From Oceanospirillaceae bacterium (GTDB taxonomy: Bacteria; Pseudomonadota; Gammaproteobacteria; Pseudomonadales; Balneatricaceae), in NCBI GenBank assembly GCA_013215505.1, contig JABSQZ010000011.1, forward strand, positions 118,138 to 182,137: DNA of 64,000 bases, in the 5' to 3' direction. Numbering within the stretch: the first letter of the stretch is position 1; every line of letters starts with the position of its first letter. A program made the translations under genes and the position numbers. Below are positions 12,788-63,455 of the stretch, piece after piece. The notes beneath the pieces were generated by a model, which saw nothing but the letters and a program-made list of their open reading frames with translations, was not told the origin of the DNA and made no database searches.

Positions 12788-12912
12788 GAAAGCAAGTCGT
12801 AAGTAGCGAGTCGGAAGTAGTAAGCAAAAAACTGAAAACCAGGAGTCGCTGGCAGCGACAGTAATTAGTAGCGAGTAGCGAGTCGTAAGGCGTAAGGCGT
12901 AAGTAGCGATCA
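12788..12912 (+). repeat. Heptamer repeat array, GT-strand on plus
   Basis: Runs of 7-bp units in phase, for example GTAGCGA, GTCGGAA, GTAGTAA and GTCGTAA, with two GGCGTAA copies, interrupted by a non-repeat segment near 12823-12865. Units vary but keep the form GTNGNNA or close to it. The orientation is opposite to the array at 12966-13136, so the two could form a long imperfect hairpin. Confidence 0.8.
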
Positions 12913-12965
12913 AAAACAGAGGGAAAAAGATAAACACCCATAAGCCAACTATTAAACACCGCACT

Positions 12966-13136
12966 TGGCGTGAATTAACTTACGACTTTCTACTTACGAC
13001 TCGATACTCACTACCAGCTCACTATGTCTTGGCGTGAATTACCCACTTCCGACTTACGACTTCCTACTTCCGACTAGTTTACCTATGTCTTGTCTTTTAA
13101 AACTTACGACTTCCAACTTCCTACTTACGACTGCGT
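12966..13136 (-). repeat. Heptamer repeat array downstream of zapE
   Basis: Read on the minus strand directly after the zapE stop: GTCGTAA, GTAGGAA, GTTGGAA, GTCGTAA, then a spacer, then GTCGGAA, GTAGGAA, GTCGTAA, GTCGGAA and more. Two copies of a spacer related to TTGGCGTGAATTA occur at 12966 and 13027. The units keep a 7-bp phase and share the consensus of the other arrays in the window. Confidence 0.85.
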
Positions 13137-14261
13137 CTAAGCCCTATGTTCGCGTGCCAGATATTCGTGGGATTGCATTTCTAGAAGGCGGCTTTTGGTG
13201 CGCTCGATCTCGAATTCCAGCTTGCCTTCGGTGTAGATTTCAAAGATGGGTACGGCGGCTGAAATGATCAACTTTACGCCGCTGTCGTAGAACTCATCGA
13301 CCATGTTGATAAAGCGCCTGGCGGCGTCGTCATTTTCTCGACCCATTTGCGGAAGGTTGGACACCAGTACCGCGTGGAACAGTTTGGCGATTTCGATGTA
13401 GTCATTTTGTGATCTCGGCCCCAGACAGATATCGCTAAAGTCAAACCAGACTACGTCTTCACAGCAGCGCCTGGATAATATTTCGCGGCCATTAATTTCA
13501 ATCAGCTCATTTTCTACGACTTCATCCAGATCTGGCGCTAGGTTTTCGAAACTTTTATTTAAACTAGTATCTGCAGCGCCATCCAGAGGGCAGTGATAAA
13601 GTTCGGCTTGCTCTAGTACCCGCAGACGGTAATCGACACCGCCATCGACATTCACTATTTCAGTGTGTTGTTTAAGCAGGGCGATGGCCGGCAAAAAACG
13701 GGCGCGCTGCAGACCATTGAGATAGAGACCGTCGGGAATAATATTTGAAGTAGCCACCAGTGAGACGCCCTCTGCGAACAAGCGCTCAAATAAACCACCT
13801 AAAATCATCGCATCAGTGATATCTGAAACAAAAAACTCATCAAAGCAGATAATACAGGCTTCTTCGGCGTAATTTCTGGCAATACTGTCCAGTGGATTCA
13901 CTTGCCCTTCCAGTACTTTTAAATCAGCATGTACCCGCTGCATAAAGCGATGAAAATGGGTGCGCACTTTACGCTCAAACGGCAGGCTGTCGTAGAAGGT
14001 ATCCATCAAGTAGGTTTTACCGCGCCCGACCCCACCCCAAAAATACAAACCTTTTACCGGTACTTTCTTCTCAGGCTTATTAAACACAGCGGACATCTTG
14101 CCAAACAAGCTTTTCTTAGGCGCAGGAGCCTGAGAGATAATCAACTCGTCATATAATCGCTGCAAATGCTTTACAGCAGTCTCTTGAGAGGCATCGTAGG
14201 AAAAATCATCACGTTTTAAATCTTGCTGATAGCGAGCGAGCGGAGCGAGTGCTGAAGACAT
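13137..14261 (-). CDS. zapE: Cell-division ATPase ZapE (AFG1-like)
   Basis: ZapE is an AFG1/LACE1-type P-loop ATPase that associates with the Z-ring in E. coli. The 374 residues include the Walker A GGVGRGKTYLMD (about residues 75-86), the Walker B-like ICFDEFFVSDITDAM, the sensor segment LVATSNIIPDGLYLNGLQRA and an arginine-rich R-F-L-P block, all in normal order. It is upstream of rplM-rpsI as in many gammaproteobacteria. The heptamer array begins within about 6 nt of its stop codon. Confidence 0.94.
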   Translation of the reverse strand: MSSALAPLARYQQDLKRDDFSYDASQETAVKHLQRLYDELIISQAPAPKKSLFGKMSAVFNKPEKKVPVKGLYFWGGVGRGKTYLMDTFYDSLPFERKVRTHFHRFMQRVHADLKVLEGQVNPLDSIARNYAEEACIICFDEFFVSDITDAMILGGLFERLFAEGVSLVATSNIIPDGLYLNGLQRARFLPAIALLKQHTEIVNVDGGVDYRLRVLEQAELYHCPLDGAADTSLNKSFENLAPDLDEVVENELIEINGREILSRRCCEDVVWFDFSDICLGPRSQNDYIEIAKLFHAVLVSNLPQMGRENDDAARRFINMVDEFYDSGVKLIISAAVPIFEIYTEGKLEFEIERTKSRLLEMQSHEYLAREHRA

Positions 14262-14347
14262 AGTACTAATTTTCTTCCTTATTAGGATCCAGGATTTCAG
14301 CAGCGCACTTTACTCCTGATCCCAAAAATGTGCAAATAACGACAAAC

Positions 14348-14419
14348 TTTTGACTCACTACTCGCTACTTCCAACTTCCAACTTCCAACTTCCAACTTCC
14401 TACTTCCAACTTTCTACTG
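14348..14419 (-). repeat. Heptamer repeat array at the mobA 3' end
   Basis: On the minus strand: GTAGAAA, GTTGGAA, GTAGGAA, then four GTTGGAA in a row, GTAGCGA, GTAGTGA and GTCAAAA, all in perfect 7-bp phase. The first unit contains the mobA stop codon (CAG TAG AAA), so the array begins inside the gene end. Confidence 0.9.
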
Positions 14420-14983
14420 CAGCTCTGCTGCCGTGTTTATATTAACCAACCCCCCGCTCTCCTCAGCTGTTATTTGTAATTCTATAACGCAATGCTGGTA
14501 ATACCATTTTCTTACCGCCCTGCCACCATCAATTAAGTAATCTTCCAGACTCTGTTTTAAAGCTACAGGAATCGCAGCGTGCAAAGGATGCAAAAACTCA
14601 CCTTCGGCTAGTACAATAATAGCCTCCGGATTTTCAGCAGATGCAAGCAAAATCTTTTCGACAATGGAACGGGTGATTAACGGCGTATCACAGGGAAGCA
14701 CCAGCAATGTTGCCGATGCCGTAGATTCCATCGCGGCATGAATACCCGCCAACGGGCCCAGAGATCCAGCAATGCGATCACAGACAACGCTATCAGCCAA
14801 TGGCATATAATCGGTAAGATTGCGGTTACAGCTAATCAGCAACTGAGACACCAAGGGCCGGACCACATCTAAGGTCCACTGAATCATTTTTTTGTCCCGG
14901 TACTGAACAATGCCCTTATCCAGACCGCCCATGCGACTTCCCTGCCCGCCTGCGAGTACCACTGCTGAAAAATCCATATCCAC
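14414..14983 (-). CDS. mobA: Molybdenum cofactor guanylyltransferase
   Basis: MobA transfers GMP from GTP to molybdopterin to make the guanine-dinucleotide cofactor. The 189 residues start with the nucleotidyltransferase signature VVLAGGQGSRMGGLDKGIVQ; the metal-binding region VVCDRIAGSLGPLAGIHAAM and LVLPCDTPLI follow. It lies 11 bp downstream of moaB in a likely two-gene unit. Its stop codon is the first element of a heptamer repeat array. Confidence 0.94.
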   Translation of the reverse strand: MDMDFSAVVLAGGQGSRMGGLDKGIVQYRDKKMIQWTLDVVRPLVSQLLISCNRNLTDYMPLADSVVCDRIAGSLGPLAGIHAAMESTASATLLVLPCDTPLITRSIVEKILLASAENPEAIIVLAEGEFLHPLHAAIPVALKQSLEDYLIDGGRAVRKWYYQHCVIELQITAEESGGLVNINTAAELQ

Positions 14984-14994
14984 GTTCTCCTCTA

Positions 14995-15543
14995 TTAATC
15001 GCGGCTCACACAGGCCGAATCATCACTGGGCATAACCATCTCAACAAAATTACAGGGCCTATGGCGCACATCCAACTGCTGGCAAATGATTTTGTCCCAG
15101 GCCGTGCGACAAGCATTGGGTGAGCCTGGCATGCAAAAGATCACGGTGCGGTTAGCGACACCTGCCACTGCCCGTGACTGAATAGTTGAAGTGCCAATAT
15201 CCTGAAAAGAAATACTGCGAAACAACTCGCCGTAACCGTCGATCTCTTTATCGAACAACGGAATCATGGCTTCAGGGGTACTGTCACGGGAAGTAAAGCC
15301 AGTACCGCCGGTAATCAAAATGGCATGCACCTCTGCATCGGCAATCCACTGCGACACACAAGCGCGTATTTTATAAATATCATCAATCACAATCGCCCTG
15401 CGGGCAATCTGATGCCCGGCAGCCTCAACGCACTCCTGTAACAGATCACCCGAGCTATCGGTGGCTGTGGTGCGGGTATCAGAGACTGTTAATACCGCGA
15501 TATTAATGGCCCTGAAAGCGACTTCTTTTTTAACCTTACTCAT
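14995..15543 (-). CDS. moaB: Molybdenum cofactor biosynthesis protein MoaB
   Basis: MoaB/MogA-family protein that adenylylates molybdopterin before metal insertion, or a paralogue of that activity. The 182 residues show IAVLTVSDTRTTATDSSGD, LITGGTGFTSRDSTPEAM and the late FCMPGSPNACRTAWDKI, the family's conserved loops. It is followed at once by mobA, which supports a molybdenum cofactor role. Confidence 0.93.
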   Translation of the reverse strand: MSKVKKEVAFRAINIAVLTVSDTRTTATDSSGDLLQECVEAAGHQIARRAIVIDDIYKIRACVSQWIADAEVHAILITGGTGFTSRDSTPEAMIPLFDKEIDGYGELFRSISFQDIGTSTIQSRAVAGVANRTVIFCMPGSPNACRTAWDKIICQQLDVRHRPCNFVEMVMPSDDSACVSRD

Positions 15544-15643
15544 ACTCTGCCTACTACTGGTAAATTAAATTTTGGCTATCTTCAGTTATAACCTATATAA
15601 ATGCTAGCCGTTGGATGTTTTTAACTAAGCACACCACTATATT

Positions 15644-16648
15644 TTAACAATTCCCGCTTACTTCAGCAGAGCCTTGCGAATCAAATTGTGTACTACCAAA
15701 GTCATTCACTAATTGTTGCAGCTGCTTAAGGTGCTGAAGCCAGTAATCTTCACTGTTAAACCAGGGAAAAGCTAACGGGAAGGCCGGATCATTCCAACGC
15801 CTGGCCAGCCACGCGGTATAATTAATCACCCGCAAAGCGCGCATCGCCGGAATCCAATTCAACTGGTAACTCGGGAACTCTATCGACTCTTCATAGCCTT
15901 CAATCAATTCAGATAATTGCTTTTTCTGCTGTTGCTGATCACCGGCTAAAAGCATCCAAATATCTTGTACCGCCGGAGCCATCATACAATCGTCAAAATC
16001 TAGCATGATCGGGCCATCACGGCTCATTAACACATTAGACAAGTGGCAATCACCGTGCACGGCAATAAAGTGGCTGTCAAAATCATCAGGAAGACAATCA
16101 GCTATGGCGCTTAAGAGTTCCATTATAATACTGGTATAGTGTCCTTGCAGCTTCTTAGGAATCCAGTTTTCAACTAAATAGGCACTGCCTGTACACCCCA
16201 TCCTTACAATATTGAAGCTGCGACGGTGCTTAAAATGCCAGCCCTTTCCCTGCGCGTGCAGTCTTCCAATCAACTGCCCCAGCTGGAACATACTATCCAA
16301 ATCGTCAAGTTCGGGAACACGCCCTATGACTTTTTGCTGCAGCGAACAAAAGTAGCCGCCAAGCTCAATCACTGACTCGCCAGCAGTATTAAGTACATTT
16401 TCGGCGATAGGCACATCTGCTTTATAGAGTTTATCCGCAAAACTGTGCTCTTCTTCTATCTGCTGCTTAGACCAATGTTGCGGCCGGTAAAATTTGGCGA
16501 TCACTGAGCCACCTTCATCTAAACCAACCTGAAACACCCGGTTTTCGTAGCTGTTTAAAGGGTAAGATTGACCACTGACTTCGTAACCGTATGATTCAAC
16601 CAGATCCAGTACCAGATCCGGTTGCAATTGAGAAAAATCTACCTGCAT
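15644..16648 (-). CDS. srkA: Stress response kinase SrkA (YihE)
   Basis: A Ser/Thr protein kinase of the aminoglycoside-phosphotransferase fold that counters stress-induced death in E. coli. At 334 residues it is close to the usual 328. Visible are the early FSQLQPDLVLDLVESYGYEV, the nucleotide Lys region SVIAKFYRPQHWS, the catalytic loop AVHGDCHLSNVLM and the metal-binding LDFDDCMMAPAVQDIW. It lies alone between moaB and the exopolysaccharide operon, on the opposite strand from the latter. Confidence 0.93.
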   Translation of the reverse strand: MQVDFSQLQPDLVLDLVESYGYEVSGQSYPLNSYENRVFQVGLDEGGSVIAKFYRPQHWSKQQIEEEHSFADKLYKADVPIAENVLNTAGESVIELGGYFCSLQQKVIGRVPELDDLDSMFQLGQLIGRLHAQGKGWHFKHRRSFNIVRMGCTGSAYLVENWIPKKLQGHYTSIIMELLSAIADCLPDDFDSHFIAVHGDCHLSNVLMSRDGPIMLDFDDCMMAPAVQDIWMLLAGDQQQQKKQLSELIEGYEESIEFPSYQLNWIPAMRALRVINYTAWLARRWNDPAFPLAFPWFNSEDYWLQHLKQLQQLVNDFGSTQFDSQGSAEVSGNC

Positions 16649-16967
16649 TAACTATGCCTATTAAAAATATTAAAAAGGAAGCTAGCTATAATAATGTTTT
16701 TGCACATCATACGCTTGGAACACTGAATAAGTAAGAAAACAGCGAACATAACCCAACGGTAACTTAATATAGACATCAACGTCTCTATAAGGAGACAGTT
16801 GCAGCATATAAATTTACACTTGTTTTAATAATTATATTATTTACCGAAAAACCATGATACTTTGCCCATCTAATTAAAGTCGCCATAGTACTATTCAATT
16901 ACATTTATAGCTGTATATGGTAAATTATCAATACATTATGAGAAATCCTCTCAGGGAAGGGCAGGTC
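16649..16967 (+). promoter_or_regulatory. Promoter region of the exopolysaccharide export operon
   Basis: About 320 bp between divergent srkA and the barrel gene. It contains a short inverted repeat GTCTC-TATAAG-GAGAC at 16781-16796, a possible operator, but no promoter element can be assigned reliably. All five following genes on the plus strand probably depend on this region. Confidence 0.4.
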
Positions 16968-18146
16968 ATGTTACGCAATTCTACACCCGCAATACTATCC
17001 GTTGTAAGCTCGTTTTTATTATTCAATTCAACTTCTGTATTAGCGGTAGAGCCAGCGGCAGTTCCTCTTGGAGAAATGAATTTTTACCCCAGTCTCAATT
17101 TTGCGACAGGCCACGACGATAATATTCTGGCAGAAGAAACCGGCGAGAAGAGTTCTTCTGTTACAAGAATAACGCCTAACTTCTTGTTAGAAGCAGAAAC
17201 AGATAACACTTTATACCGCCTAAACTACTCTATAGAGAAGGGCATTTTACACAGCAGTAATTCCGATAACTACCTCGATCACAACTTAACCGGAACAGCC
17301 AACATCATCGGCAACAGCCGTAACCGGATTGATCTTCAAGTGAGCACCATTAAGGGTCACGAAGCACGAGGAGACGAAACAGGCAGTGCCACTGCTACTG
17401 ATGCACCGCTTAAGTTTGATTTAAACTCGCTGCAGGCAATATATACATATGGCGGAGAAGAAGCTAAGGGACAGGTTGAATTGAGAGCTGCTTATGAAGA
17501 TAAAGACTTCACCAACTTTAGCTCAGTTACTGACAGCAGAGACTTCGACAAAATTAGTTTTGGTGCACAGTTCAACTACAGAGTAACCGCTAAAACTTCA
17601 GCTTTATTCCAAGCTACACAAAATAAAATCGACTACGATGACTCGAATAAAGACAATACCAACAGGCGCTTTTTGGTCGGTGCCACTTGGGAGGCAACTG
17701 CTAAAACCTCTGGTACTGTTAAAGTAGGTTGGGCAGACAAAGATTTTAAAGACAGCAGTTTAAAAGATACGGATGGCGGAACCTGGGATGCATCCATCAA
17801 CTGGAACCCAAAAACTTACTCTACTTTCATCTTTAGTACTGGACAAGAGTTTGGTGAGTCGACCACTGCTGATTCCCACATAGACTCATCCAATTACGGG
17901 CTGAAATGGAACCACTATTGGAATGACAACCTGAAAACCACCATTGGCTACACCTTAGTTAACGAAGATTTCAGTGGTAGCACTCAAGACGACGATACAA
18001 AAACTCTACTATTGGGCATAAATCACGAGACTCGCAGATGGCTTAATCTTGGGCTAGGTTATACAATGGTCGACAAAGACTCAAATGTCACTGGCGGCAG
18101 CTTCAAAAAGAATATTTTGATGTTTACTGTACAGGGCTCCCTCTAA
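16968..18146 (+). CDS. Outer-membrane beta-barrel, VpsM-like (EPS export)
   Basis: A 393-residue protein with a signal peptide ending ...STSVLAVEP, followed by alternating beta-strand sequence through to the C-terminus, typical of the BBP2-type barrels found in EPS loci (GEMNFYPSLNFATGHDDNIL at the mature start; aromatic-rich strands; final strand ending FTVQGSL). I start at 16968 because AAGGGCAGG precedes it; an in-frame ATG at 16917 lacks such a site. Its neighbour is an OPX protein with no barrel-forming tail, so this barrel is probably the exit channel, as proposed for VpsM and the Wzp proteins of Myxococcus. The role is inferred from context and fold. Confidence 0.75.
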   Translation: MLRNSTPAILSVVSSFLLFNSTSVLAVEPAAVPLGEMNFYPSLNFATGHDDNILAEETGEKSSSVTRITPNFLLEAETDNTLYRLNYSIEKGILHSSNSDNYLDHNLTGTANIIGNSRNRIDLQVSTIKGHEARGDETGSATATDAPLKFDLNSLQAIYTYGGEEAKGQVELRAAYEDKDFTNFSSVTDSRDFDKISFGAQFNYRVTAKTSALFQATQNKIDYDDSNKDNTNRRFLVGATWEATAKTSGTVKVGWADKDFKDSSLKDTDGGTWDASINWNPKTYSTFIFSTGQEFGESTTADSHIDSSNYGLKWNHYWNDNLKTTIGYTLVNEDFSGSTQDDDTKTLLLGINHETRRWLNLGLGYTMVDKDSNVTGGSFKKNILMFTVQGSL

Positions 18147-18182
18147 AAAGGGACTCAATATCTTTTTATTGACGGTTGATAC

Positions 18183-18722
18183 ATGAATAATTTACTTAGC
18201 AAATTTAGAACATTTGTTAGCGTGTTGTTGTTGTTAAGTTTTATCTCCATTGTGCAAGGCGCAAGTTTCTCTGATTACCTATTAGGGACTGGAGATAAAA
18301 TAAGTATTAAAGTGTTTGGTGAGGAAGAGCTCAGTTCTGAATTTACCTTAAGCGATGCAGGGACAATTTCCTATCCATTTCTCGGTGAAATTAACGCACT
18401 GGATTTGACCATAGGTGAATTAAGTCAGCTTATTACTAAAGAGTTGTCTGACGGTTATATAGTTAACCCAAGCGTCAACATTGAAGTCATAGGCTATCGC
18501 GAGTTCTACATTAATGGTCAGGTTGAAAAACCAGGGGCCTATCCGTACCAGCCAGGCTTAACACTTCTTAAGGCAGTAGCGCTAGCAGGGGGCTATACCG
18601 AGAGAGCCTCTGGCAGCAAAATGTATGTGCTTCGCGAAGGTTCTAATAAACGCAAAAAAATCAAAAATAATGTAAAAATTCTACCTGGAGATGTGATAAC
18701 TATTGAGGAAAGTTTCTTCTAG
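18183..18722 (+). CDS. Short polysaccharide export protein (OPX, VpsN-like)
   Basis: A 179-residue periplasmic OPX protein with a signal peptide (to about residue 26), a Poly_export domain (YLLGTGDKISIKVFGEEELS; DAGTISYPFLGEINALDLTI) and one SLBB domain (INGQVEKPGAYPYQPGLTLL, then AVALAGGYTERASG). It has no lipobox Cys and ends after the first SLBB, less than half the length of Wza (about 380), so it lacks the C-terminal outer-membrane helix. It should bridge the Wzc-type protein and a separate barrel. Two hairpins lie between it and the next gene. Confidence 0.88.
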   Translation: MNNLLSKFRTFVSVLLLLSFISIVQGASFSDYLLGTGDKISIKVFGEEELSSEFTLSDAGTISYPFLGEINALDLTIGELSQLITKELSDGYIVNPSVNIEVIGYREFYINGQVEKPGAYPYQPGLTLLKAVALAGGYTERASGSKMYVLREGSNKRKKIKNNVKILPGDVITIEESFF

Positions 18723-18727
18723 TTTTC

Positions 18728-18798
18728 TCGATAACTACTTTAGTTATCATCATTTTAAATGTAATCACCAGGACGTTAATTAAACATTTATTGTCCTG
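18728..18798 (+). promoter_or_regulatory. Two hairpins between the OPX and Wzc genes
   Basis: GATAACTA-CTT-TAGTTATC at 18730-18748 followed by ATCATTTT, then CAGGAC...GTCCTG (18769-18774 with 18793-18798). The first resembles a weak terminator or attenuator, and the second lies just upstream of the Wzc leader. They may lower expression of the kinase relative to the OPX protein. Confidence 0.4.
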
Positions 18799-18845
18799 AC
18801 CCCTCTCATTCTTAGTACAAATGTCAAATAGTCCGGATAGGTGCA

Positions 18846-21080
18846 ATGGAAGCTAGTTTTAAAGAGCAAAACACATTAATCAATTCTGAAGAAGTTATAG
18901 ATTTACGCCAGTATTGGCGCATACTCATGAGTCACAAATGGGGAATTCTAGGTTTCTCAACAATTGTTACCTTACTGACAATCTTAGTGGTCTTTAATAT
19001 CACTCCTGTCTACAAAGGCACGAGTACCTTATTGATCGAGTCCCAGCAGACCAATGTTGTCTCGATTCAAGAAGTATATGGCTTAGATGGCAGCAGTGAA
19101 TACCTACTGACCCAATTTGAAATACTCAAATCGCGTAGCTTGGCCAAAAAAGTTATTCTAAAATACAACTTGTTAGACCATCCCGTCTATAACCAGCCTA
19201 AAGCAGAGTTGCCAGAAAAATTACAATTTCTGCAAGATTTTAGTCTTAAAGAGACTGCTGCTGAGTATTTTCCCGATCTGTTCACTGCTACCGATGAGAT
19301 AGAAGTAGTATCTGATGAAATCATTTTGGAAAATATGATCACTTCATTCCTGAAAAATTTGAGCATCTCCCCGATCAGAAAAACCCAGCTGGTAATGATA
19401 AGCTTTGAATCAATCGATGCCAAACTTGCTGCGACCATTGCCAATGCAGTTGGCGACACCTACATTGAAGATAACTTGGCGGCAAAACTGGAACTGACAG
19501 TCAAAGCGACAACCTGGCTGAATAAACAACTAAAGGGGCAAAGAGTAGACTTAACCGCTGCCGAAAAACGCCTACAGCAATACCGAGAACAAGAGCGAAT
19601 CATTGGTGTTGACGGCGGTTTAGGCATGGCAGAGCGAGAGATAGAATTAGTCTCTACCAAACTGGTTGATGCTAAACGTGAGCGATTAGAGCTGGAGAGC
19701 TTGTATAACCAGATCCAGAAATTAGGCAGCAAAAGTTCTGCCAAATTACAGCTTATTCCTTCTATATTGAGCCATACTTTAGTACAAAACTTGAAAGATG
19801 TAGTCGCAGGGGTTGAATTAAGACGCTCGGAAATATCTAACCGCTACGGTAAAAAACACCCCAAAATGAAAGCTATAAGTTCGGAACTATCGAGGGCTTA
19901 CAGTAATCTAAACCGACAAATTCTGTCTATCGCCAGAGGAATTGAGAACAAATACAATATTGCTCTGGCAAATGTGGAGTCATTAGAGGGAAGTCTGGAT
20001 GACACCCGGGATGATATGCAGCTCCTTAGCGGCAAGGAATACAAGCTTAAAGAATTACAACAAGATGTTGATACTAAGAGGACCTTATTCGAGCAATTTT
20101 ATACTCGCTTTAGTGAAACCAGTGCCACTGGTGATTTAAAAACTGCCAATGCCCGAGTAACTGACCTTGCAGCAACACCCATCGATCCTATAAAACCCAA
20201 TAAAAAACTGATCGTAGCGCTGGCATTTGTCGCCAGTTTTATGTTTGCTGTGATGGTGGCTTTTTTGCTAAAAGCCCTGGATAACACTATAAAAACCAGT
20301 TTAGAGGTAGAGACTAAATTAGGTGAGGTGATGCTAGGCTTATTGCCATTACTGCCCAAAACCAGGAAACAACAAAATCCGAGTTACAACCATTACCTGG
20401 AAGAGCCGCACTCCACCTATTCTGAATCCCTGCGCACTATTCGCACCGGTATTATATTATCGTCACTGGACAACCCTTACAAAACTATTAGTGTTACATC
20501 ATCAGTCCCAGGTGAAGGAAAAACCTCCACATCACTTGGATTAGCTTTTTCCCTGGCGCAAGTGGGCACTGTGTTGTTAATTGATGCAGATATGCGCCGT
20601 CCCTCGATTCACAAAGCCCTAGGTTTGACCCAGCAAAGAACTGGACTTTCCAATTTAGTTGCGCAGACCCATACAATGGAAGAGTGTATCCACACATATG
20701 AACAAGGGGGCTTTGACGTTCTGATCTGCGGAATCATTCCCCCTAACCCATCAGAGTTGCTTTCATCGGAACGCTTTAAAGATTTGATCACCGGTCTTTC
20801 TAAGATTTACGATAAGATCATCATAGACACAGCGCCATGCCAGGCTGTCAGTGATGCCTTGGTGCTGGCTCCTATAGTTGATGCTTATCTATATGTAGTT
20901 AAATCTGACGCTACTACCTCACACCTGGCTAAAAATGGCTTAAAAAGGCTCAAACAAGTCCAAGGTAATATCGCCGGTGTAGTACTGAACCATGTAGATA
21001 TAAAGAAAGCCGAAAAGTACTACGGAGAAGATTATAGCGGCTATTACGATAACTACGGCTATTCAGGTGCTAACACTTGA
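18846..21080 (+). CDS. Wzc/VpsO-type chain-length regulator and tyrosine autokinase
   Basis: Inner-membrane co-polymerase that controls polymer length and export through tyrosine autophosphorylation. The 744 residues include an N-terminal Wzz domain (TM1 near residues 36-56), a long coiled-coil periplasmic region, GNVR-type segment, TM2 near 458-478, and a cytoplasmic BY-kinase: Walker A SSVPGEGKTSTSLGLA, Walker A' VLLIDADMRRPS and Walker B KIIIDTAPC. The C-terminal tail has seven Tyr within about 16 residues, the phosphorylation cluster. GGATAGG precedes the ATG. The stop overlaps the TTG start of the PHP phosphatase, its likely counter-enzyme. Confidence 0.95.
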   Translation: MEASFKEQNTLINSEEVIDLRQYWRILMSHKWGILGFSTIVTLLTILVVFNITPVYKGTSTLLIESQQTNVVSIQEVYGLDGSSEYLLTQFEILKSRSLAKKVILKYNLLDHPVYNQPKAELPEKLQFLQDFSLKETAAEYFPDLFTATDEIEVVSDEIILENMITSFLKNLSISPIRKTQLVMISFESIDAKLAATIANAVGDTYIEDNLAAKLELTVKATTWLNKQLKGQRVDLTAAEKRLQQYREQERIIGVDGGLGMAEREIELVSTKLVDAKRERLELESLYNQIQKLGSKSSAKLQLIPSILSHTLVQNLKDVVAGVELRRSEISNRYGKKHPKMKAISSELSRAYSNLNRQILSIARGIENKYNIALANVESLEGSLDDTRDDMQLLSGKEYKLKELQQDVDTKRTLFEQFYTRFSETSATGDLKTANARVTDLAATPIDPIKPNKKLIVALAFVASFMFAVMVAFLLKALDNTIKTSLEVETKLGEVMLGLLPLLPKTRKQQNPSYNHYLEEPHSTYSESLRTIRTGIILSSLDNPYKTISVTSSVPGEGKTSTSLGLAFSLAQVGTVLLIDADMRRPSIHKALGLTQQRTGLSNLVAQTHTMEECIHTYEQGGFDVLICGIIPPNPSELLSSERFKDLITGLSKIYDKIIIDTAPCQAVSDALVLAPIVDAYLYVVKSDATTSHLAKNGLKRLKQVQGNIAGVVLNHVDIKKAEKYYGEDYSGYYDNYGYSGANT

Positions 21081-22488: not shown

Positions 22489-22530
22489 TCTGACAGCTCC
22501 CTAACAAGCATAAGTATCTGTCAGATTCTT
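22487..22530. terminator. Hairpin between convergent EPS operon and RTX gene
   Basis: Ten-base perfect stem AATCTGACAG/CTGTCAGATT with a loop of about 21 nt, exactly between two convergent genes. The T run is weak, so a bidirectional terminator is likely but not certain. Confidence 0.55.
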
Positions 22531-22540
22531 TCAGCAGTTT

Positions 22541-40479: not shown

Positions 40480-40958
40480 CTACCGAAAATTAGAACCTTT
40501 ATACCAGTCGGTCAAAGATTTTTCTAAATCATACTGATATGTATAGCCATGCTGTCCCAACCAAGTAGGTTTAATATTGGTTGAATTAACTAATTTTAGT
40601 ATTAACTCAGGATCGATTCCTATGTTCAGAATATTGAAAACACAGAATAACCTAGCAATCGACATGAGAACCCATTGCGATATTAAAAATATATTTCGTT
40701 GTACTAATGTTTATATATATCCAAATTTTTTAAATCGTTTATTTCTCTGAAAGGCAACCCATTAAATAGTCTAGATCTATCGTCATGGTTACGCGCAAAT
40801 TCTATAGCACTTGGTGTGCTCATTAAGGTAAATAAGTCCCTTAACAGTATCTTTACGTCCCGAAAAGATAAAAAAACCCTTACCCAACATGGAAACCAAT
40901 CGGGTAAGATCCCCCTCTCCATTGCCAAACACAACAGCAGGGAAAACTACCTTTAACT
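40480..40958 (-). pseudogene. NAD-dependent epimerase, 3' remnant (second copy of 59427-60392)
   Basis: Pieces in order match the C-terminal half of the intact epimerase at 59427-60392: VVFGNGEGDLTRLVSMLGKG and FFIFSGRKDTVKGLIYLNE in one frame, then a shift to SAIEFARNHDD, then ARLFCVFNILNIGIDPELIL and TNIKPTWLGQHGYTYQYDLE to the end. The upstream half is missing; the break falls exactly where a 10-bp tandem repeat (40951-41000) begins. This gene would have headed the cluster 1 operon, so its function may now be supplied by the other copy. Confidence 0.88.
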
Positions 40959-41000
40959 TTCTTGAACATTCTTGAACTTTCTTGAACTTTCTTGAACTTT
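40951..41000 (-). repeat. Five 10-bp tandem repeats
   Basis: On the plus strand CTTGAACTTT is repeated five times with small changes in the first two units (CTTTAACTTT, CTTGAACATT). It lies at the broken end of the epimerase pseudogene and appears to be an expansion of its own sequence. Confidence 0.9.
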
Positions 41001-41179
41001 CTTCGCGATACTACTGTCGATGTACATCTTCCTCCTGCAGCTTATAGTATCAATAAGCAGATAGAGGAGCAGGAATGCTAGACTCCTGTTTTTAATCTTC
41101 CCCTTGGCGATAATGAGAGATTGAGCTGGGAAAGAATAAATAATCAGTCCGTTACATAAAATATTAATGATGATTTGGA

Positions 41180-41285
41180 GCTTTAATACCTTGGCCCAAG
41201 CGAATCGCTATAACAGACCGCCGATTTTGGCCTAAATTTCCTCACGCCTCACACCTGCCTTAAGCTTACGCCTAATCTTTTCAAA
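41180..41285 (+). repeat. Right copy of a ~110-bp direct repeat
   Basis: Resembles about 26660-26765 in the same orientation (TTTTGGCCTAAATTTCCTCACGC; TACGCCTAATC). It lies just before the heptamer array at the ΨcysQ 3' end. Together with the left copy it brackets cluster 1. Confidence 0.5.
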
Positions 41286-41361
41286 CTTACTACTTCCGAC
41301 TAGCAATTATCTTTTAGCTTGCGACTTACGACTCTCTCCTTCCGACTATCTCCCTCGTCCG
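41286..41361 (-). repeat. Heptamer units at the ΨcysQ 3' end
   Basis: On the minus strand GTCGGAA, GGAGAGA, GTCGTAA and GTCGCAA, then after an 18-bp gap GTCGGAA and GTAGTAA. As in the intact cysQ at 63421, the repeats replace the end of the coding region. Confidence 0.75.
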
Positions 41362-41871
41362 AATGATTACATCGACTGCCGACGAAACACCACTGATAGG
41401 CCAAGCCAGGAATATTAGGGGTACTGATATCTAATTTTCCACCTATCTCCAATTTATAAGCTCCGCTTGTACCACCCATATAAAACACATCAGGAACAGT
41501 GGCATAAACAACCCCGAACACCGGTAAGCCATCTTCAATCAAGGCAATATTTGTGATAAATCACCCTTGCGTTTTATAAATTTTTTAGTGCTATCTAAGA
41601 GATCTATCAACCAACACTTGTTCCATTGCTGCAGCCCAAACAATTCCACTTCTGATGTTTCTTATGAGAACACATGAATATCATGGGTATATTTTTAAGC
41701 CCAGCTACGATGAATTTGTGTGCAGCTAAATCCACTTCAGAAAGTGGACTTTGATCATTTTTAGCACCTATAGAATAATCACGCTGATAAATATCGAAAT
41801 TTTGTCACCCGCTAATGTTCCTAAGACAATAATATGCCCTGCTTTATAGATAAGCTCTCCAAAATGATCTT
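41300..41871 (-). pseudogene. cysQ remnant (PAP phosphatase), multiply frameshifted
   Basis: Pieces of CysQ can be read across frames: GAKNDQSPLSEVDLAAHKFI (matching the start of the active enzyme), LLDSTKKFIKR (from DPLDGTKEFIKR), then IEDGLPVFGVVYATVPDVFY and YQWCFVGSRCNHSDEGD. The middle and end of the protein, including the WDTAAAHAVV motif, are deleted. It is a second version of the cysQ at the right window edge, in the same orientation. Divergent remnants of cysDNC follow on the plus strand, so this was a sulfate-activation module. Confidence 0.85.
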
Positions 41872-44330: not shown

Positions 44331-44858
44331 GAGTTTATCGAGTCTGTGTAAATACCTGTTGTGTTGAATATACTTACTTATCTCGATTTATGATAATTTA
44401 AGTGTTCCAGGTAAAATTCTAACGTGGTTGAGAAAATATTTGAAACTCGACGTTGATATTTATTGGTTGCGGTTGAATTCAAACTCATTGCATTCATTGT
44501 TGACAAATAAATTCATTTAGTTTGCTAACCTCAGAGTTATATCGGAGAAAATATAATTCTTATAATAAATAATTCTTTGTTTGAATATATTCCACATATA
44601 CACAATATTGTTTAAACTACTAAAAAAATTGATAAATGAAATTGAATACATTATATAACAATAAAATTGGTAACGGGTAACGGGTAACGGGTAACGGGTA
44701 ACGGGTAACAATATTACTTGTATTATAAAAAATATGTATTTCTAGGAAATCATAAGTCACTTTCATAATTCGATATGGAATATTAATAAAAGAAGAATAC
44801 TTAAAATTATAAATTGTTACGAAAATATATAAATATTTAATTAAAAAAATCAGATAAT
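44331..44858. repeat. Intergenic with GGTAACG heptamer array
   Basis: About 530 bp, very AT-rich. At 44669-44709 there are five perfect 7-bp units GGTAACG plus a partial sixth. No gene is seen; minus-strand frames here are chance extensions. The array lies about 150 bp behind the wzy gene of cluster 2. Confidence 0.85.
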
Positions 44859-49720: not shown

Positions 49721-49826
49721 ATATAAACCAAAAATTATGTTTAAAATTTTTATACTAGTTTTAAATTTTATTCATTAGATTATTCTGTGTCGCACATTTC
49801 GTATTTTAACAATTAAAATAATATTT

Positions 49827-51886: not shown

Positions 51887-51942
51887 TTATCAAAACCCAC
51901 AATAATTCTTTCATCAAAAGTATTCACAACAATATTTTATTG

Positions 51943-53457: not shown

Positions 53458-53462
53458 ATTTG

Positions 53463-55423: not shown

Positions 55424-55424
55424 G

Positions 55425-57367: not shown

Positions 57368-58546
57368 GTATAAGTCCACAACGCAACATTACATTCCGCA
57401 TCCATTTGATCCGATACCTTTCTTCATTCCTTTAAATTTATAGAATGCTATTATGTAACATCCCCACAAATCAGGTGAACCCCTGTGAACACATTGGCGC
57501 CTATTCAGACTCTGATTGTGTAGGCTAATCTACAGCACTGTTTAATATTCGGGTTCAACATAAATAGTCCTCGAGGTTGTAAATCCATCCAGCATCTACA
57601 GACGATCCCGCCTTACATTAGCGAACTATTATTGATCTTCGCATATCTACATATTCAATAATATAATACTTATTCCACGGATATCGTTTAATACAATCCA
57701 TCTTGTATTCCGATATACATTATTTATAACTTCACAAAGTTCTATAAATTTACTGACTTCATAAAGTTTTGTTATATACAATTTTTATCGATTTAAATAT
57801 GGATTTCCGTGCATATGTATCCATATTTATTAGCTTTATCAAGGTCTCAAGTACCATAAATTCTTACTTGTTGTATAGTATGGAGATCCAACTATGTATT
57901 AAGAATCTTTTCACCTTCATTTGAATTTCATATTGATTTAACCAATATTCCCTTAACATTGTTATAATCAATTTTTGTTAATACTGACAATCGACATACA
58001 ACTCGGATAAGCTTTGATGAATTGCAATACAATATATTTTCTACCAAGCCCCATACAAATTGTATACCGTGGGCTTCTCTGTGATAAAATTCAGTGACAT
58101 CTCTTACTATTACTTTGTTATAAAATCTCCAAATTTTAATATAATTTTTATTGATTATTTTTTACTGAAAACATCAATTATGTAGCTTACAGTTGATTTA
58201 AAGTATAGAAGACTTTCCAAAAATATTGACAAAATATTTAGATTTTTACTTTATTTCTTGAAAATTTATGTCAATGCTATTGTATTTATTAGTTTTTTTA
58301 TAATTAAAATAGTTAATTCAGATAAATATCTTTGAATTTCATTACAATAGTATTCACTGCGAGCACGAATTTCGATCTCTTTACTAAATCAACCAAAGCT
58401 AATATGCTTTTTTGATACATTTTCCTAAAACAAATATTATCCTTCCTTCGGAAATAATTATTATCCCTATATATTCTATTTTCTGTAGTACAATCGTAAA
58501 ATCCATATCCATATCCATATCCATGGAAATTTTATTTCCCCCGATC
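57368..58546. promoter_or_regulatory. Long AT-rich region upstream of rmlB
   Basis: About 1.2 kb without a recognisable gene; it must carry the cluster 2 promoter on the minus strand. The part near 58190-58300 resembles the region before the intact small secreted protein gene at 25.6-25.8 kb, so it was copied with that gene. I looked for JUMPstart/ops words (GGCGGTAG) and saw none. At 58501-58524 there are four ATCCAT repeats, just before the broken small-protein gene. Confidence 0.45.
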
Positions 58547-58563
58547 GTTTTGCAGAACCGTAC

Positions 58564-59017
58564 TATGGAAGTACTTGCAGCAATCGTCACCCTTGGTATG
58601 TCACTGGCTCCCCATGCCGTTATTGCGCAGTTAGCTAGCGATTTAAATTCAAACCTTCCTATAAACATTATTTTAATAACGCATTTGCTGATGGCTCATA
58701 ACTGGATGATATATAAGAGAAAACAGCAGCGCAAAATCAGGGATTACCTCCTGCTGCAACAACATATGCTGTTTGTAATAAACTGAAATAATGGACATTA
58801 TATTGACCTTAGCCACCTCACCTGATTTATCCAAACTTATAGCAAACAAAACCAGGGCCTGTGTTGTAACTGAAGGGGAGCCACTAGTATTGACCCTCCT
58901 AAAGATAGGTGAAGTAACCGCTGCAGGTGGTTGAGCGGTGACAGCCCCTTGTAGTACCTCATTGGTAGTTCGGTGGAGGGGCAAACACCAGTGCAGGGAA
59001 AAACAACAAACACCTAA
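58564..59017 (+). pseudogene. Second copy of the small secreted protein, broken
   Basis: Signal peptide and start are recognisable: MEVLAAIVTLGMSLAPHAVI then ASDLNSNLPI, matching MRVLAAFITVGMLLTPHAVN and ASDVNSNLPI of the intact gene at 26011. Frameshifts and deletions follow; later pieces are TYAVCNK, DIILTLATSPDLSKLIANKT and IGEVTAAGG, and the Gly-rich tail has a stop. Upstream sequence and the hairpin at the end also match. It shows that the gene, with its control region, was duplicated and one copy lost. Confidence 0.85.
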
Positions 59018-59426
59018 CAAGCGAAAATAGCGCTTTTTTATGCATGATAGCGCTTACTACCCAACTGATCTGAAATTGGCGGCACGACTAGCTTAAGGAA
59101 AGGTAATTAAGTAGTCAGTAGTCAGTAGTCAGTAGTCAGTAGTCAGTAGTCAGTAGTCAGTAGTCAGTAGTCAGTAGTCAGTAGTCAGGTAATACTGCGG
59201 AATTATTTACAATAATATTAGGTTATTAGTGTGCTAATTTCTCTTAGAATTCACATTTCTACAATCACCGAATCAAAGATAAAGTAAGCACTCATTTATA
59301 ATCTTAAAAAACTAAGGATATCCACGCAAGTAGTCAAAGCACCCCGGGAGCTAGAACTATTGCAAGCCGAATATACCATGAGCGGGAACAATGTAGGCCG
59401 TTCCCAAGCGGGATGTGCTAGTACAG
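59018..59426 (+). repeat. Intergenic with 11 perfect GTAGTCA heptamers
   Basis: At 59111-59187 there are 11 identical 7-bp units GTAGTCA (77 bp). The array follows the broken small-protein gene, which is on the same strand. Nothing else can be assigned; the rest is AT-rich. The epimerase gene ends at 59427 on the other strand. Confidence 0.95.
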
Positions 59427-60392
59427 TTAATTAAACTTTTTACCCGTGTCTATGTACCAATCACGTATTGATGTATCCAATTCATAGGAAAACTTATACC
59501 CATGATCTACCAACCATTTAGGTTCAATATTGGTCGATTTTACCAATTTCAATACCCTTTCCTGATTTATTCCAAGATGAAACTGGTCGAATACACTTAA
59601 TAATCTAGCCGCGTATATCACAAGTTTTATCGGCACCATGAATGACTTTACTTTATGAAAATAATTTCTCTTAAAACATTCAACTATATCCTCGATGCTA
59701 TATTTTTTTGGAAAAACTGCATTAAAAACCACTATCCTTTCGTTATTTCTCTGGGCAAAATCTATCGAAGCCAATAATTCCTTAATATATATGCAGCCCT
59801 TAATTGTATCCTTCCGGCCTGGATAAATAAAAAATCCTTTATCTAATATTCTTGCCAGCCTTGAGTAATTTCCCCCTTCGCCTTTACCAAATACCACTGA
59901 CGGTCTTACAATTATTAATTTTGCTCCGGCATTAGTATCAAACCATTGTTTATGAATACCTTCTGCCTGGGTTTTTGAAACACCATATGCGCTGGTTGGC
60001 AGCAAGTTACTTGCTTCATTTTTTTCTTCCTCACTGCTGCCATATACAGCAATTGAGCTTGTAAATATAATTTCCTTTATCGATTCTTTTGATGCAAATT
60101 TTGTTACTTCTAGCGCACCAAATACATTGGTAGAGAAATACTCAATGTCTTCGTGACCTGGGGTAGTGTGTATAGCTGCAAAGTTATATATTGTATCAAT
60201 ATTTGATCTGATTTTTAATTTACTTAGATCTCTAACGTCTGCATATATATATTCAACAGATTTATGTTTTTTTTCTGGGTCTTTAATATCTGCAGATATT
60301 ATTTTAATATTTTTATTGACTAACTGATTGATTAAATGGGTACCAATAAAACCTGAACCACCAAAAATTATAATATGTTTTATTTTGTCCAT
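59427..60392 (-). CDS. NAD-dependent sugar epimerase/dehydratase
   Basis: A 321-residue extended short-chain dehydrogenase/reductase: IIFGGSGFIGTHLINQLVNK (NAD loop), TIYNFAAIHTTPGHEDIEYF, FTSSIAVYGSS and the catalytic YGVSKTQAEGIHKQW (Y-x3-K), then PSVVFGKGEGGNYSRLARIL. The C-terminal part has the substrate-side motif common in polysaccharide epimerases, e.g. UDP-GlcNAc/GalNAc-type. GGAG precedes the start. A broken second copy heads cluster 1 (40480-40958), so this one may act for both clusters. Substrate is not known. Confidence 0.88.
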   Translation of the reverse strand: MDKIKHIIIFGGSGFIGTHLINQLVNKNIKIISADIKDPEKKHKSVEYIYADVRDLSKLKIRSNIDTIYNFAAIHTTPGHEDIEYFSTNVFGALEVTKFASKESIKEIIFTSSIAVYGSSEEEKNEASNLLPTSAYGVSKTQAEGIHKQWFDTNAGAKLIIVRPSVVFGKGEGGNYSRLARILDKGFFIYPGRKDTIKGCIYIKELLASIDFAQRNNERIVVFNAVFPKKYSIEDIVECFKRNYFHKVKSFMVPIKLVIYAARLLSVFDQFHLGINQERVLKLVKSTNIEPKWLVDHGYKFSYELDTSIRDWYIDTGKKFN

Positions 60393-61104
60393 CCTATTCT
60401 CCGTTCATTTTAATTCCAGTCAATACATTTCGACAACCTTAGAACTAGAAAAACCCTGATTAGGGTAATACATACTTCTATAGCGTTTTCAAATATTTAT
60501 TTTTCCTATAACACAACGTTTTACACGTTTATTATTTGAAGATACCAATTTAAAATCTTTGATTATTCATACTACAAATCAGTTATTTCATCCATAGCTA
60601 ACACCTTGCGTTATTAAAACTCTATACACTATCTTTAATAGTTTTAGAAACTGTTCAATCATGTAAATCGGCAAACTATCTACGGGAGGCGAACACTTGA
60701 TTCTTTTTGAATAATTTGTAATATTTTTTATATCTTTTACACACTTATGTTTTTTACTATATATTTGTAGAAATATATAGTAAAAAAATATTCTTCAGAT
60801 CTAGGATAGTTGAATTGCTTTGGTTAAGGAATATTATTGCTTTTCGCAGGAGTTATTAATATTTTTCCTTAAGAATAATTTTTAATTTAAATTTCGACTA
60901 CATTGTTGGTATGAACTTTTTATTTTGACAAATTGAATTCTAATAAAATGTGAATTTTCAAATAATAATGTATTAAATTACTATAATATTCAGAGGGTTC
61001 TGTTTGCGAATTTCACTAAGGAATATGCGATTCATTCCCGATATTAACTAATAGTGGCTTAATCACGGTAAGGTTGTGTTGATGGCACAGTAATTAGGGC
61101 ATTC
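60393..61104. other. AT-rich stretch with a perfect 17-bp palindrome
   Basis: About 710 bp without a gene, upstream of the epimerase. At 60750-60787 there is a perfect inverted repeat: arms of 17 bp (TTTTTTACTATATATTT and its complement) around a GTAG loop. With T and A runs at both ends it can act as a bidirectional terminator; an operator is the alternative. No promoter is assigned. Confidence 0.6.
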
Positions 61105-62040
61105 GGAAATAGATTCAAAATACATCACTTTAAAACTCGCAAAGAGGTTTTTCTGAACAGATGGAGTTCTTATTCCCTGGAATAGACTTGTAGCGCTGAT
61201 TGAGCCTAGCTGCCCTAAAGCAGGTAATGGTCGTAGGCCTTACCAGCTAGAATTAATGTTAGGTGCTCACTGTTTACTGCAATGGCATAACTTAAGTTAT
61301 GCAGCGACCGAAGATTTGCTCTACGAAAATCCTCAATGAGACGTTTCTCCCACTTGTCATTAGATAGATCTATACCAGGCCATACAACTATCATAAAACT
61401 TCGCCACTCACTGGAGGAACATTGCTTAGGTCGGCAGATTTTCGATGCTATAAATCAATTTCTTGAGGAGTCGGGAGTGTTGATGATAGAAGATACCTCA
61501 ACTGATACGACTATTATTGAATCGCCATCCTCGACTTAGAATAAACTGAATCAACCTGATCTAGAGGTGCATCAATCAAAGAAAGCCAACCAATGGCACT
61601 CTGGTATGGAAGCCAGTATTAGCGTCGATGTTCAAACAGGCTGGCTCATACATTTATAATAACAGCGGTCAACGGGCATGATCTTTGCCAAGCCGATCAA
61701 CTTCTGCAGGATGAAATGGAACATTTTTTTGCGGTTCAGGAAATCGTGGAACGCGAAAGCCAGAAGAACTTAACGAAACGACCGCTGCTTTGTATATCAC
61801 AGAGCAGCCGAGTAAAGTCAAAAACTGAAGAAGCATCCTAGAGTCAATATAATGGCGATTAACAAACATTATTTAAAAGCCTGTGTACGCGCTTTTGTTG
61901 AGCACCCTATCAGAATTATTAAATGCCAGTTTGGCTCTAAACAGCGCGCTATCGCGGCATCGCGGAAAATCGATAACAAATTGGCAGTTCTGTTCGCTCT
62001 GGAAAATATTTACAGACTGAGTCAGTTCATAAAGCTTTAG
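61105..62040 (+). pseudogene. IS5-family transposase, heavily decayed
   Basis: Fragments in several plus-strand frames, in order: [30 protein letters not shown] and [56 protein letters not shown] (first catalytic Asp region); then near the end FVEHPIRIIKCQFGSKQRAI (normally VEHPFRVIKRQFGY). At least four frame changes and stops; no terminal inverted repeats could be defined by eye. An old insertion between the epimerase and the membrane protein. Confidence 0.85.
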
Positions 62041-62195
62041 GATAGCTACATTAAAAAAGACGGAAAACCGCCTTGTCAGCTGAACTACTCCTGAATTAGG
62101 CGAAAAATACTGGATAAAATAGCAAAATATTCCTACGATGTTATACATGGATAGATTTTAACACTTAATCGCTGTTCCCCTAGATTGAGGTTAGC

Positions 62196-62930
62196 ATGTT
62201 AAGAATAGGCTATCGTATATCCGACAAGGTCACAAAATTTCTAGTAATTCAAGTATTAGTTACGACCAATATTGGGTGGGTGTTATTGGCATTTATAAAC
62301 CCGTCATTGGCGGTAGATCTGACTAAAGAAGATAACATTCTTCAATGGCTCCAAGTTCTTTTTTTGCTTGCTACAGCCTTTTATTGTTTAAAGATTTATC
62401 GAGGCTATCGTCTCTTACAGGAAAAAAAACTAATAGCGATAGCATTTTTAATATTTTTTATATTAACACTTTTTGTAGCATTTGAAGAAATTAGCTGGGG
62501 ACAGAGGATTTTTGGTATAGCAACCCCCGATTTTATTAAAGAAGTTAATCTACAAAATGAAATCACGATTCATAACCTTTCATATTTTCAGAGAGTCCGA
62601 CACTGGTTGTTGATATTATTTGGTGGTACTGGACTAATTCTTATTTACCAGCAAACATATATATATAAAATAAATGCACAGTTATTGGCTTTGTCCCCAC
62701 CTACTTTCTTCAGCACTGCATTTTTGCTAGTTCTAATAAGCGGCATGACACTTGAAATAGCATATTTATTCATAAAAGTAGCTCCTGGTGATATTGCAAA
62801 TGAAGTTCGATATTGGGCAGGTAGGTTTTCAGAAATTGGTGAATTTGGGGTTTCCATCACAGCATTTTCCTACGCCTCGAATAAGTTAAATTCTCTGCTT
62901 TCATCTCCCCTTAAAGAAAAACCCAAATAA
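62196..62930 (+). CDS. Unrecognised polytopic membrane protein
   Basis: A 244-residue protein with about six predicted membrane helices (near 18-38, 50-66, 80-98, 132-152, 168-190 and a weaker one at the end). A conserved-looking hydrophilic block, FEEISWGQRIFGIATPDFI (about 101-119) then NLQNEITIHNLSYFQR, follows helix 3 and carries acidic, Trp, Arg and His residues suitable for an active site. GAGG precedes the ATG. I do not recognise a named family. It lies alone between a dead transposase and a heptamer array, near cysQ. Confidence 0.7.
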   Translation: MLRIGYRISDKVTKFLVIQVLVTTNIGWVLLAFINPSLAVDLTKEDNILQWLQVLFLLATAFYCLKIYRGYRLLQEKKLIAIAFLIFFILTLFVAFEEISWGQRIFGIATPDFIKEVNLQNEITIHNLSYFQRVRHWLLILFGGTGLILIYQQTYIYKINAQLLALSPPTFFSTAFLLVLISGMTLEIAYLFIKVAPGDIANEVRYWAGRFSEIGEFGVSITAFSYASNKLNSLLSSPLKEKPK

Positions 62931-63011
62931 AAAGTGCGGCGAAAAGTCAGTCGGAAATTAAATACACGCAGGCTAAGTTGTTAAATACTATGCAGCGGCA
63001 GTCAGTCTTGA

Positions 63012-63095
63012 GTAGCGAGTAGCGAGTAGCGAGTAGCGAGTAGCGAGTAGCGAGTAGCGAGTAGCGAGTAGCGAGTAGCGAGTAGCGAGTAGCGA
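63012..63095 (+). repeat. Twelve perfect GTAGCGA heptamers
   Basis: 84 bp of exact 7-bp units GTAGCGA, 82 bp after the stop of the membrane-protein gene and on its coding strand. Together with the 59111 array it is the purest example of the heptamer family in this window. Confidence 0.97.
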
Positions 63096-63209
63096 GTAGG
63101 ATGCAACGCATCAGATTTTATTATCAACTATTTTTGATAGAATGTTTGGAAACTTCTATGGATAAACAGAGGCTTTTGGCACTGTAAATGCCTTCTCCAT
63201 GGAGGATTT

Positions 63210-63353
63210 ATGACCACACTTATTGTGACACAAGCCAATTCCATACTTGACAGTCTAATAGACGAAACCCAGGCCACTGATAAGTTGTCAGTTACATATA
63301 AAACCAATAGCTATAAATGCCAAGAACACTGCCCTAAATCAGTCCGTCTTTGA
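63210..63353 (+). pseudogene. Phd/YefM-type antitoxin remnant
   Basis: A 47-codon frame with GGAGG just upstream. Its first 30 residues (MTTLIVTQANSILDSLIDET) match the N-terminus of YefM/Phd antitoxins, which normally run MTTLTVTQAR..LxxLIDE. The frame then loses similarity and stops early; no toxin gene follows. Likely a relic of a toxin-antitoxin pair. Confidence 0.55.
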
Positions 63354-63360
63354 TTTTTCA

Positions 63361-63455
63361 TTTACCATTTAACTTACGACTGCCGACTGCCGACTCATTA
63401 CTCACGACTGTCAATGCCCGTTAACTTACAACTTCCGACTCACTACTTCCGACTA
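63361..63455 (-). repeat. Heptamer units at and beyond the cysQ 3' end
   Basis: On the minus strand GTCGGAA, GTAGTGA, GTCGGAA and GTTGTAA, then the stop TAA inside GTTAACG, and further GTCGTGA, GTAATGA, GTCGGCA, GTCGGCA and GTCGTAA. The first four units encode the last residues of CysQ (VGSSESEVVS). Confidence 0.9.

Follow-up and report, generated by a model that had tools for sequence, protein, structure and literature searches.

Introduction

The STRR repeats of cyanobacteria are heptamers, units of seven nucleotides, arranged in tandem. Here we describe a family of in-phase heptamer arrays with the unit GTNGNNA in the genome of an Oceanospirillaceae bacterium (GCA_013215505.1; 5.73 Mb in 52 contigs, here G000), starting from a stretch of 64,000 nucleotides of contig JABSQZ010000011.1 (G000:C5:118138-182137) that we refer to as the window. 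The closest described systems are the G-rich heptamers GGGAATC and GGGGA(C/T)T of Xanthomonas and Nostoc, which form quadruplexes in vitro (Rehm et al., 2015; PMC4692102). These heptamers are intergenic and rare between divergent genes; they lie in sense within 50 bp of stop codons, overlapping some of them, or in antisense within 50 bp before genes, with four units preferred and inverted pairs also present. They are mostly transcribed, with both strands about equally represented in Xac transcripts. That paper discusses placement largely by way of G-quadruplexes, notes that repeats too short or too mutated to form them are distributed alike, and was unable to identify a role in gene regulation. 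In marine Beggiatoaceae, direct repeats of TAACTGA occur patchily, in up to hundreds of sets per genome, and in the main genome mostly just upstream of start codons (MacGregor, 2015; PMC4679880). As cited there, Mrazek (2007) found heptamers to be the most abundant class of long repeats in most surveyed genomes, and seven nucleotides was proposed as the length touching the polymerase.

The arrays in G000 resemble the heptamers of Xanthomonas and Nostoc in their 7-bp unit, in their sense orientation next to stop codons (36 of 58 arrays within 40 bp) and in their rarity between divergent genes, a nearly identical placement that bears out the likeness to cyanobacterial heptamers proposed in an earlier, sequence-only reading of the window (Rehm et al., 2015). 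Unlike the G-rich heptamers, they are almost without G-tracts (GGG in 13 of 375 units), have no start-codon side (of 13 arrays facing a start codon, 2 are within 50 bp of it) and show no preference for four units (arrays have 3-18 units, with ten arrays of three, ten of four and nine of six). They share with TAACTGA the heptanucleotide unit, the patchy occurrence and, by our own reading, the triplet AGT, which the other strand of TAACTGA contains; TAACTGA is one fixed word on the start-codon side, whereas GTNGNNA arrays are many-worded and lie on the stop side (MacGregor, 2015). With the long repeats of Mrazek (2007) they have in common an excess of seven over other unit lengths, while rules of strand, stop codon and word set are absent from the passage in PMC4679880 that describes those repeats. 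Unlike REP and BIME palindromes, stem-loops built of inverted arms, 54 of 60 clusters in G000 have a single orientation, and folding is weak. The pattern is real, strong and largely of a known kind; the GTNGNNA variant is new. Among the titles and abstract beginnings of openly licensed articles in PMC, we found no paper on GTNGNNA arrays or on heptamers of this bacterial group.

Results

GTNGNNA arrays are abundant and keep their phase

Across the whole genome, three in-phase GTNGNNA units give 557+767 overlapping hits, compared with 5+3 for the control pattern ANNGNTG, which is GTNGNNA read backwards; we estimate that the genome holds a few hundred runs of 7-base repeats. Statistics of anatomy, words and placement come from a systematic sample of G000, comprising the window and 59 further stretches (1,223,775 bp, 21% of the genome). 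In this sample, exact tandem arrays of at least three copies number 11, 6, 5, 54, 3, 2, 2, 0 and 0 for unit lengths of 4 to 12, so that heptamers, with 54, stand apart from every other length (0-11). GTNGNNA is matched by 47 of these 54, where 5.5% of heptamer circles would match. The arrays are real and far above chance. No exact heptamer array of at least three copies was found at 79 zapE loci of named relatives (683 kb). In three draft genomes, contigs stop at a heptamer array or no more than about 250 bp from one (L212, L224 and L225; G019:C66, G262:C122 and G342:C24), so draft genomes may undercount arrays.

The 58 arrays that we analyzed have at least three exact in-phase units, a minimum that we imposed. 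Their form is A(GTNGNNA)nGT: AGT recurs every 7 nucleotides and bounds the array at both ends, with A at -1 in 56 arrays, G at +1 in 51 and T at +2 in 42, followed by T at +3 (31 of 58) as the next strongest flank position. The 375 units comprise only 32 of 256 possible words, and four of these (GTTGGAA, GTCGTAA, GTCGGAA and GTAGCGA), all without GGG, account for 69%. Words are mixed in phase. Adjacent pairs are identical in 206 cases and differ at one, two or three positions in 36, 47 and 26, close to the 28.8, 45.0 and 35.2 predicted by random drawing from the word set. Mixed arrays keep the strict 7-bp phase that the sequence-only reading had described.

The GT strand consists of 39% G and 8% C, and RNA from the arrays is nearly unfolded (-0.07 kcal/mol per nucleotide in sense and -0.01 in antisense; 30 arrays). 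Within arrays there is no sign of growth polarity: differences between first and last units are not significant (p 0.20 and 0.29), and those between leftover units past either end are not clear-cut. An Rfam search of four loci (L190, L203, L160 and L162) returned a single match, a tRNA, and no array family.

Arrays lie behind genes in sense orientation

Placement was scored against gene calls from a hexamer model built for this analysis (1030 genes, 80% coding), which misses some genes, and compared with arrays given a random intergenic position and a random strand in 500 rounds. The 36 arrays starting within 40 bp of a same-strand stop codon compare with a null mean of 6.1 and a maximum of 15. 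Nine of the 58 lie near an opposite-strand stop, and one lies between divergent genes, where the null mean is 15.0. Counting only arrays near one kind of stop gives 29 sense and 2 antisense at 40 bp, and sense-to-antisense counts of 22:1, 29:2, 30:2, 26:5 and 24:6 at 10, 20, 30, 60 and 100 bp; the open reading frame (ORF) at 62196-62930 of the window is absent from the gene model behind these counts and was added by hand for the distances to gene edges. By that measure the 5' side is nearer the gene edge in 42 of 51 intergenic arrays (p 3e-6), and in convergent regions 17 of 20 arrays have a shorter distance to a gene's stop on their 5' side than on their 3' side. For most sense arrays the distance to the stop is between -14 and +26 bp. 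The bias in orientation is clearly shown, and the preference for one strand and for gene 3' ends that had been proposed from the window holds against random placement in the sample.

The rule has limits. No stop of either strand lies within 40 bp of 20 of the 58 arrays, single-orientation clusters between tandem genes include nine antisense against 17 sense, and single-word arrays make up a larger share of the arrays not near a sense stop (11 of 22) than of those near one (7 of 36; p 0.02). One array (L168:11119-11153) lies 10 bp behind a tRNA-Met gene, and a stop codon is therefore not required. The earlier suggestion that arrays start at or inside stop codons describes many of them, which begin at or just past the stop, but not the array behind the tRNA gene or those 20, and 53% of units contain no stop triplet (47% do, or 58% after collapsing runs). 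Stop codons in all frames as the purpose of the arrays are rejected, as the common words GTTGGAA and GTCGGAA hold no stop triplet.

Intrinsic termination by the arrays, which would call for a GC hairpin and a U tract, is likewise rejected: array RNA barely folds, and terminator-like sites are as frequent at array ends (6 of 36) as at control ends (82 of 589), so arrays do not take the place of terminators. At array ends these sites lie beyond the array, at a median of 90 bp from the stop compared with 26.5 at control ends, a comparison of 6 with 82 sites from a strict detector that finds few terminators anywhere. A more sensitive scan yielded the 60 clusters mentioned above, and 31 of the 54 with a single orientation lie within 40 bp of a sense stop. 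Pure hairpin geometry is thus rejected as the cause of the strand rule in G000, given how many clusters have a single orientation. Where neighboring arrays in G000 are opposed, they face inward (six -> <- pairs and no <- -> pair). In 28 of 36 sense arrays the GT strand coincides with the G-rich strand of the stretch around it, a figure partly confounded with gene direction, and convergent regions give 11 to 7; replication strand may be a minor factor in orientation.

Few words fill the arrays

Single AGTNNNNAGT seeds number 704 in the sample. The seven commonest array words, chosen post hoc, account for 21 of these seeds but for 104 array memberships; for the remaining 683 seeds the memberships total 62, a difference of some fifty-fold, memberships not being independent of one another. 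That these words are rare as seeds and frequent in arrays argues against growth from chance seeds. The mechanism of spread or amplification at gene ends that had been suggested for the window stands to this extent, that some process favors particular words; a link between gene ends and amplification as such does not follow, as arrays generated without bias and then retained would be placed alike. Two explanations fit: tracts of words already present may be copied from one site to another, or certain words may be more prone to slippage or be under selection. The near-random mixing of words favors copying. At gene ends, isolated words show only a weak lean (54 sense and 28 antisense, compared with 110 and 91 for reversed words).

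Relatives keep arrays at many of the same sites

The nearest named relative by ZapE is 'Osedax' symbiont bacterium Rs2_46_30_T18 (93% identical), followed by Neptunomonas, Neptuniibacter and Nitrincola at about 72-78%. Four in-phase GTNGNNA units occur somewhere in all 7 genomes of the genus, in 23 of 116 genomes of the family and in 32 of 369 of a class sample, G000 being counted in each and several genomes having only one or two places. The reversed control matches as many, 27 of 116 and 43 of 369, so GTNGNNA is special to the genus, and a class-wide motif is not supported. Heptamer arrays in general are patchy across genomes, with words that differ between genomes. ANNGNTG is itself common in G364, G432, G035, G199 and G239 (up to 185+154 hits), indicating heptamer families with other cores.

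The AGT core varies less across the genus than GTNGNNA does, and many listed arrays of G001 are GTTAGAA-like. AGT every 7 nucleotides gives 569+787 hits in G000 compared with 37+58 for the reversed core, and 119+105 compared with 113+75 in G004. In G003 and G002, zapE is followed by an array in the matching position (the G002 contig breaks off inside it), and in G004 by a short one; units also follow mobA in G003, G002 and G004, and in G003 they form an array located as in G000. In G005 the units behind mobA are antisense, and the array that follows zapE consists of GAGCATA. G006 has only traces at the two gene ends, and none were seen in G001. In G005 (L181), about eight GAGCATA units follow a zapE whose last codons contain GAGCATA, and this repeat may derive from the gene's own end. 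For two G000 stretches (L141 and L160), 8 of 10 array entries could be placed by both flanks in a G002 or G003 locus, the test covering these two genomes because the loci from the other four congeners did not extend across any site. Five of the eight have at least two recognizable units there, one is a remnant, and two, secondary pieces of clusters, are without units. Congeners thus keep arrays at many of the same sites, with differing units.

Regions from thirteen more distant genomes were picked around known arrays, so they say nothing about abundance, and little sequence was available for training their gene models. Of their 73 arrays, 27 have a sense stop nearby and 6 an antisense stop. 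Inverted pairs are common in four of these genomes (G228, G345, G158 and G299), where hairpin geometry may explain the sense bias; the other nine give 10 sense and 1 antisense among 26 arrays, though some of them also show opposed units, and G262 has an outward-pointing pair. The inverted pairs of the four genomes (L190-L209, L228 and L229) consist of 3-4 GT[AGT]GC[GT]A units around a short spacer that often begins with GGAAAA or similar, their outer ends often read CAGT...ACTG, and together they form hairpin-like elements of roughly 80 bp. Several lie 4-8 bp behind a stop codon and one lies behind a tRNA gene.

Discussion

We tentatively favor, at somewhat short of an even chance, the view that the arrays are a dispersed heptanucleotide satellite that combines copying of tracts, slippage and retention in one orientation. 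Array length would change by slippage of 7 nucleotides, the AGT at each unit joint serving as microhomology, so that phase would be kept. New sites and words would arise by copying of multi-unit tracts between arrays, through ectopic recombination or template switching at AGT, which would produce a dialect common to the whole genome. Tracts would survive where genes and promoters stay unbroken, and near gene ends the retained orientation would mostly be the one that puts the G-rich, C-poor strand into the transcript, the C-rich orientation being selected against.

Several observations weigh against this proposal, and its weakest step is one-sided retention by selection. The gene-end rule is not obeyed at 40 bp by 22 of the 58 arrays. 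Words standing alone outside arrays occur no more often than reversed words (29 compared with 38), so that no trail of new insertions is seen. Arrays within 5 kb of each other are scarcely more alike in words than distant ones (Jaccard 0.17 for 41 pairs and 0.15 for 1576), so word sets carry no sign of local spread. Transfer between sites is drawn from word statistics whose memberships are mutually dependent, and word-specific slippage or word-specific selection could also yield the dialect.

Sense orientation could instead be mutational, if transcription generated arrays asymmetrically through an exposed non-template strand, R-loops or nascent RNA. This we consider somewhat unlikely: the sense bias in convergent regions (17 of 20 arrays) and the array behind a tRNA gene would fit it, but alone it accounts neither for the clustering between -14 and +26 bp at the stop nor for the bias in words. 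Unlikely, too, is a functional RNA or directional element whose GT strand is harmless or useful in mRNA while its C-rich reverse acts on opposing transcription, for example by loading Rho, and shields gene 3' ends from antisense. The composition of the GT strand, the nearly unfolded array RNA, the inward-facing neighbors in G000 and the many sites common to congeners all point that way. Yet Rho prefers YC dinucleotides, and by sequence reading the reverse strand of units such as GTCGTAA has none, so a classical rut site is not a feature common to all units; most gene ends lack an array (58 arrays for 1030 genes), the pair in G262 (L224) points outward, and Rehm et al. (2015) were unable to identify a gene-regulation role for the analogous repeats.

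Arms of a hairpin element, REP- or MITE-like, would yield the sense rule from geometry alone. The many inverted pairs of 3-4 units in G228, G345, G158 and G299 and the six inward-facing pairs of G000 suit such an element, which may hold in those four genomes; as a general explanation for G000 it is refuted by the single-orientation clusters, which keep to sense stops in 31 of 54 cases. Array RNA that barely folds on its own also speaks against it, and overall we judge it quite improbable. The least probable account is ordinary slippage at chance seeds with tolerance behind genes and no strand specificity. Such slippage would agree with the abundance of heptamers among long repeats and with the polymerase length reported from Mrazek (2007) in PMC4679880, but it sits badly with an orientation of 29 to 2 and with seed statistics of 21 seeds for 104 memberships against 683 for 62. 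A speculative and very improbable extension is that a process that counts length adds units of 7 nucleotides next to gene ends from a genome-specific pool of words, AGT-bounded in this genus and built on different cores in others. The quadruplex heptamers of Xanthomonas and Nostoc, TAACTGA and GTNGNNA would then be dialects, with the gene edge and not a sequence as the target; since the reversed control matches as many genomes, this extension claims no universal AGT core.

Because GGG is found in so few units, quadruplexes are not needed for placement in sense next to stop codons, which suggests that such placement belongs to 7-bp repeats more broadly. Why bacterial repeats favor seven becomes approachable by comparing dialects, and word statistics offer a handle on how heptamer repeats spread.

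Arrays and genes in the window

In-phase GTNGNNA runs are present at the places named in the sequence-only reading, except near 44.67 kb, where the GGTAACG array stands outside the family and lacks AGT (Table 1). Of the six cases that it had assigned to gene ends, five are supported: zapE, mobA, cysQ, the membrane ORF 62196-62930 and, by sequence reading, the remnant ORF 41300-41542; the 59.11-kb array is not. Its rule that the GT-rich strand is the coding strand has an exception at 12.8 kb, where both + arrays are antisense to the flanking genes for ZapE and ribosomal protein L13, both on the - strand.

Table 1. Heptamer arrays and associated genes in the window (position 1 is its first nucleotide).
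Feature	Position	Strand	Remarks
Mixed GTNGNNA array	12796..12823	+	antisense to zapE and rplM; 172 bp upstream of rplM start
Mixed array with GGCGTAA units	12868..12909	+	antisense; exact GTNGNNA part 12868-12888
Mixed array	12973..13014	-	sense; third from zapE stop; exact GTNGNNA part 12980-13000
Mixed array	13040..13074	-	sense; 62 bp past zapE stop
Mixed array	13104..13131	-	sense; 5 bp past zapE stop
zapE (AFG1-like ATPase)	13137..14261	-	PF03969, E 1.6e-149
Nine-unit mixed array	14355..14417	-	TAG of first unit is the mobA stop codon
mobA-like nucleotidyltransferase gene	14414..14983	-	PF12804
Two short arrays	41280..41346	-	exact 41287-41300 and 41319-41332; at remnant reading like part of cysQ
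GGTAACG x5.9	44669..44709	.	7-bp array outside GTNGNNA family, without AGT, in AT-rich spacer
Pure GTAGTCA x11 array	59111..59187	+	no recognized gene end
Pure GTAGCGA x12 array	63012..63095	+	81 bp past ORF 62196-62930
Short array	63374..63394	-	sense; 26 bp past cysQ stop
Four-unit array	63426..63453	-	within last codons of cysQ (inositol monophosphatase family)

No same-strand ORF of at least 60 amino acids ends within 90 bp of the 59.11-kb array; the nearest listed ORF before it on the + strand (58412-58786) ends 324 bp upstream. Neither the membrane ORF nor the remnant has a Pfam match, and the remnant reads like part of cysQ. Arrays stand at the 3' ends of both this fragment and the fuller cysQ copy (63421-63999), which may have arisen by a duplication in which the arrays were retained or acquired again. 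A second repeated motif, about TTCA[A/C]GCCAAG, appears to adjoin several arrays (window 12970-13080, L121 and L149). Elsewhere in the window, CTTGAACTTT is repeated in tandem 5.3 times at 40951-41003, a 116-bp unit is repeated 2.2 times at 2526-2785, and 61100-62080 resembles a decayed transposase gene.

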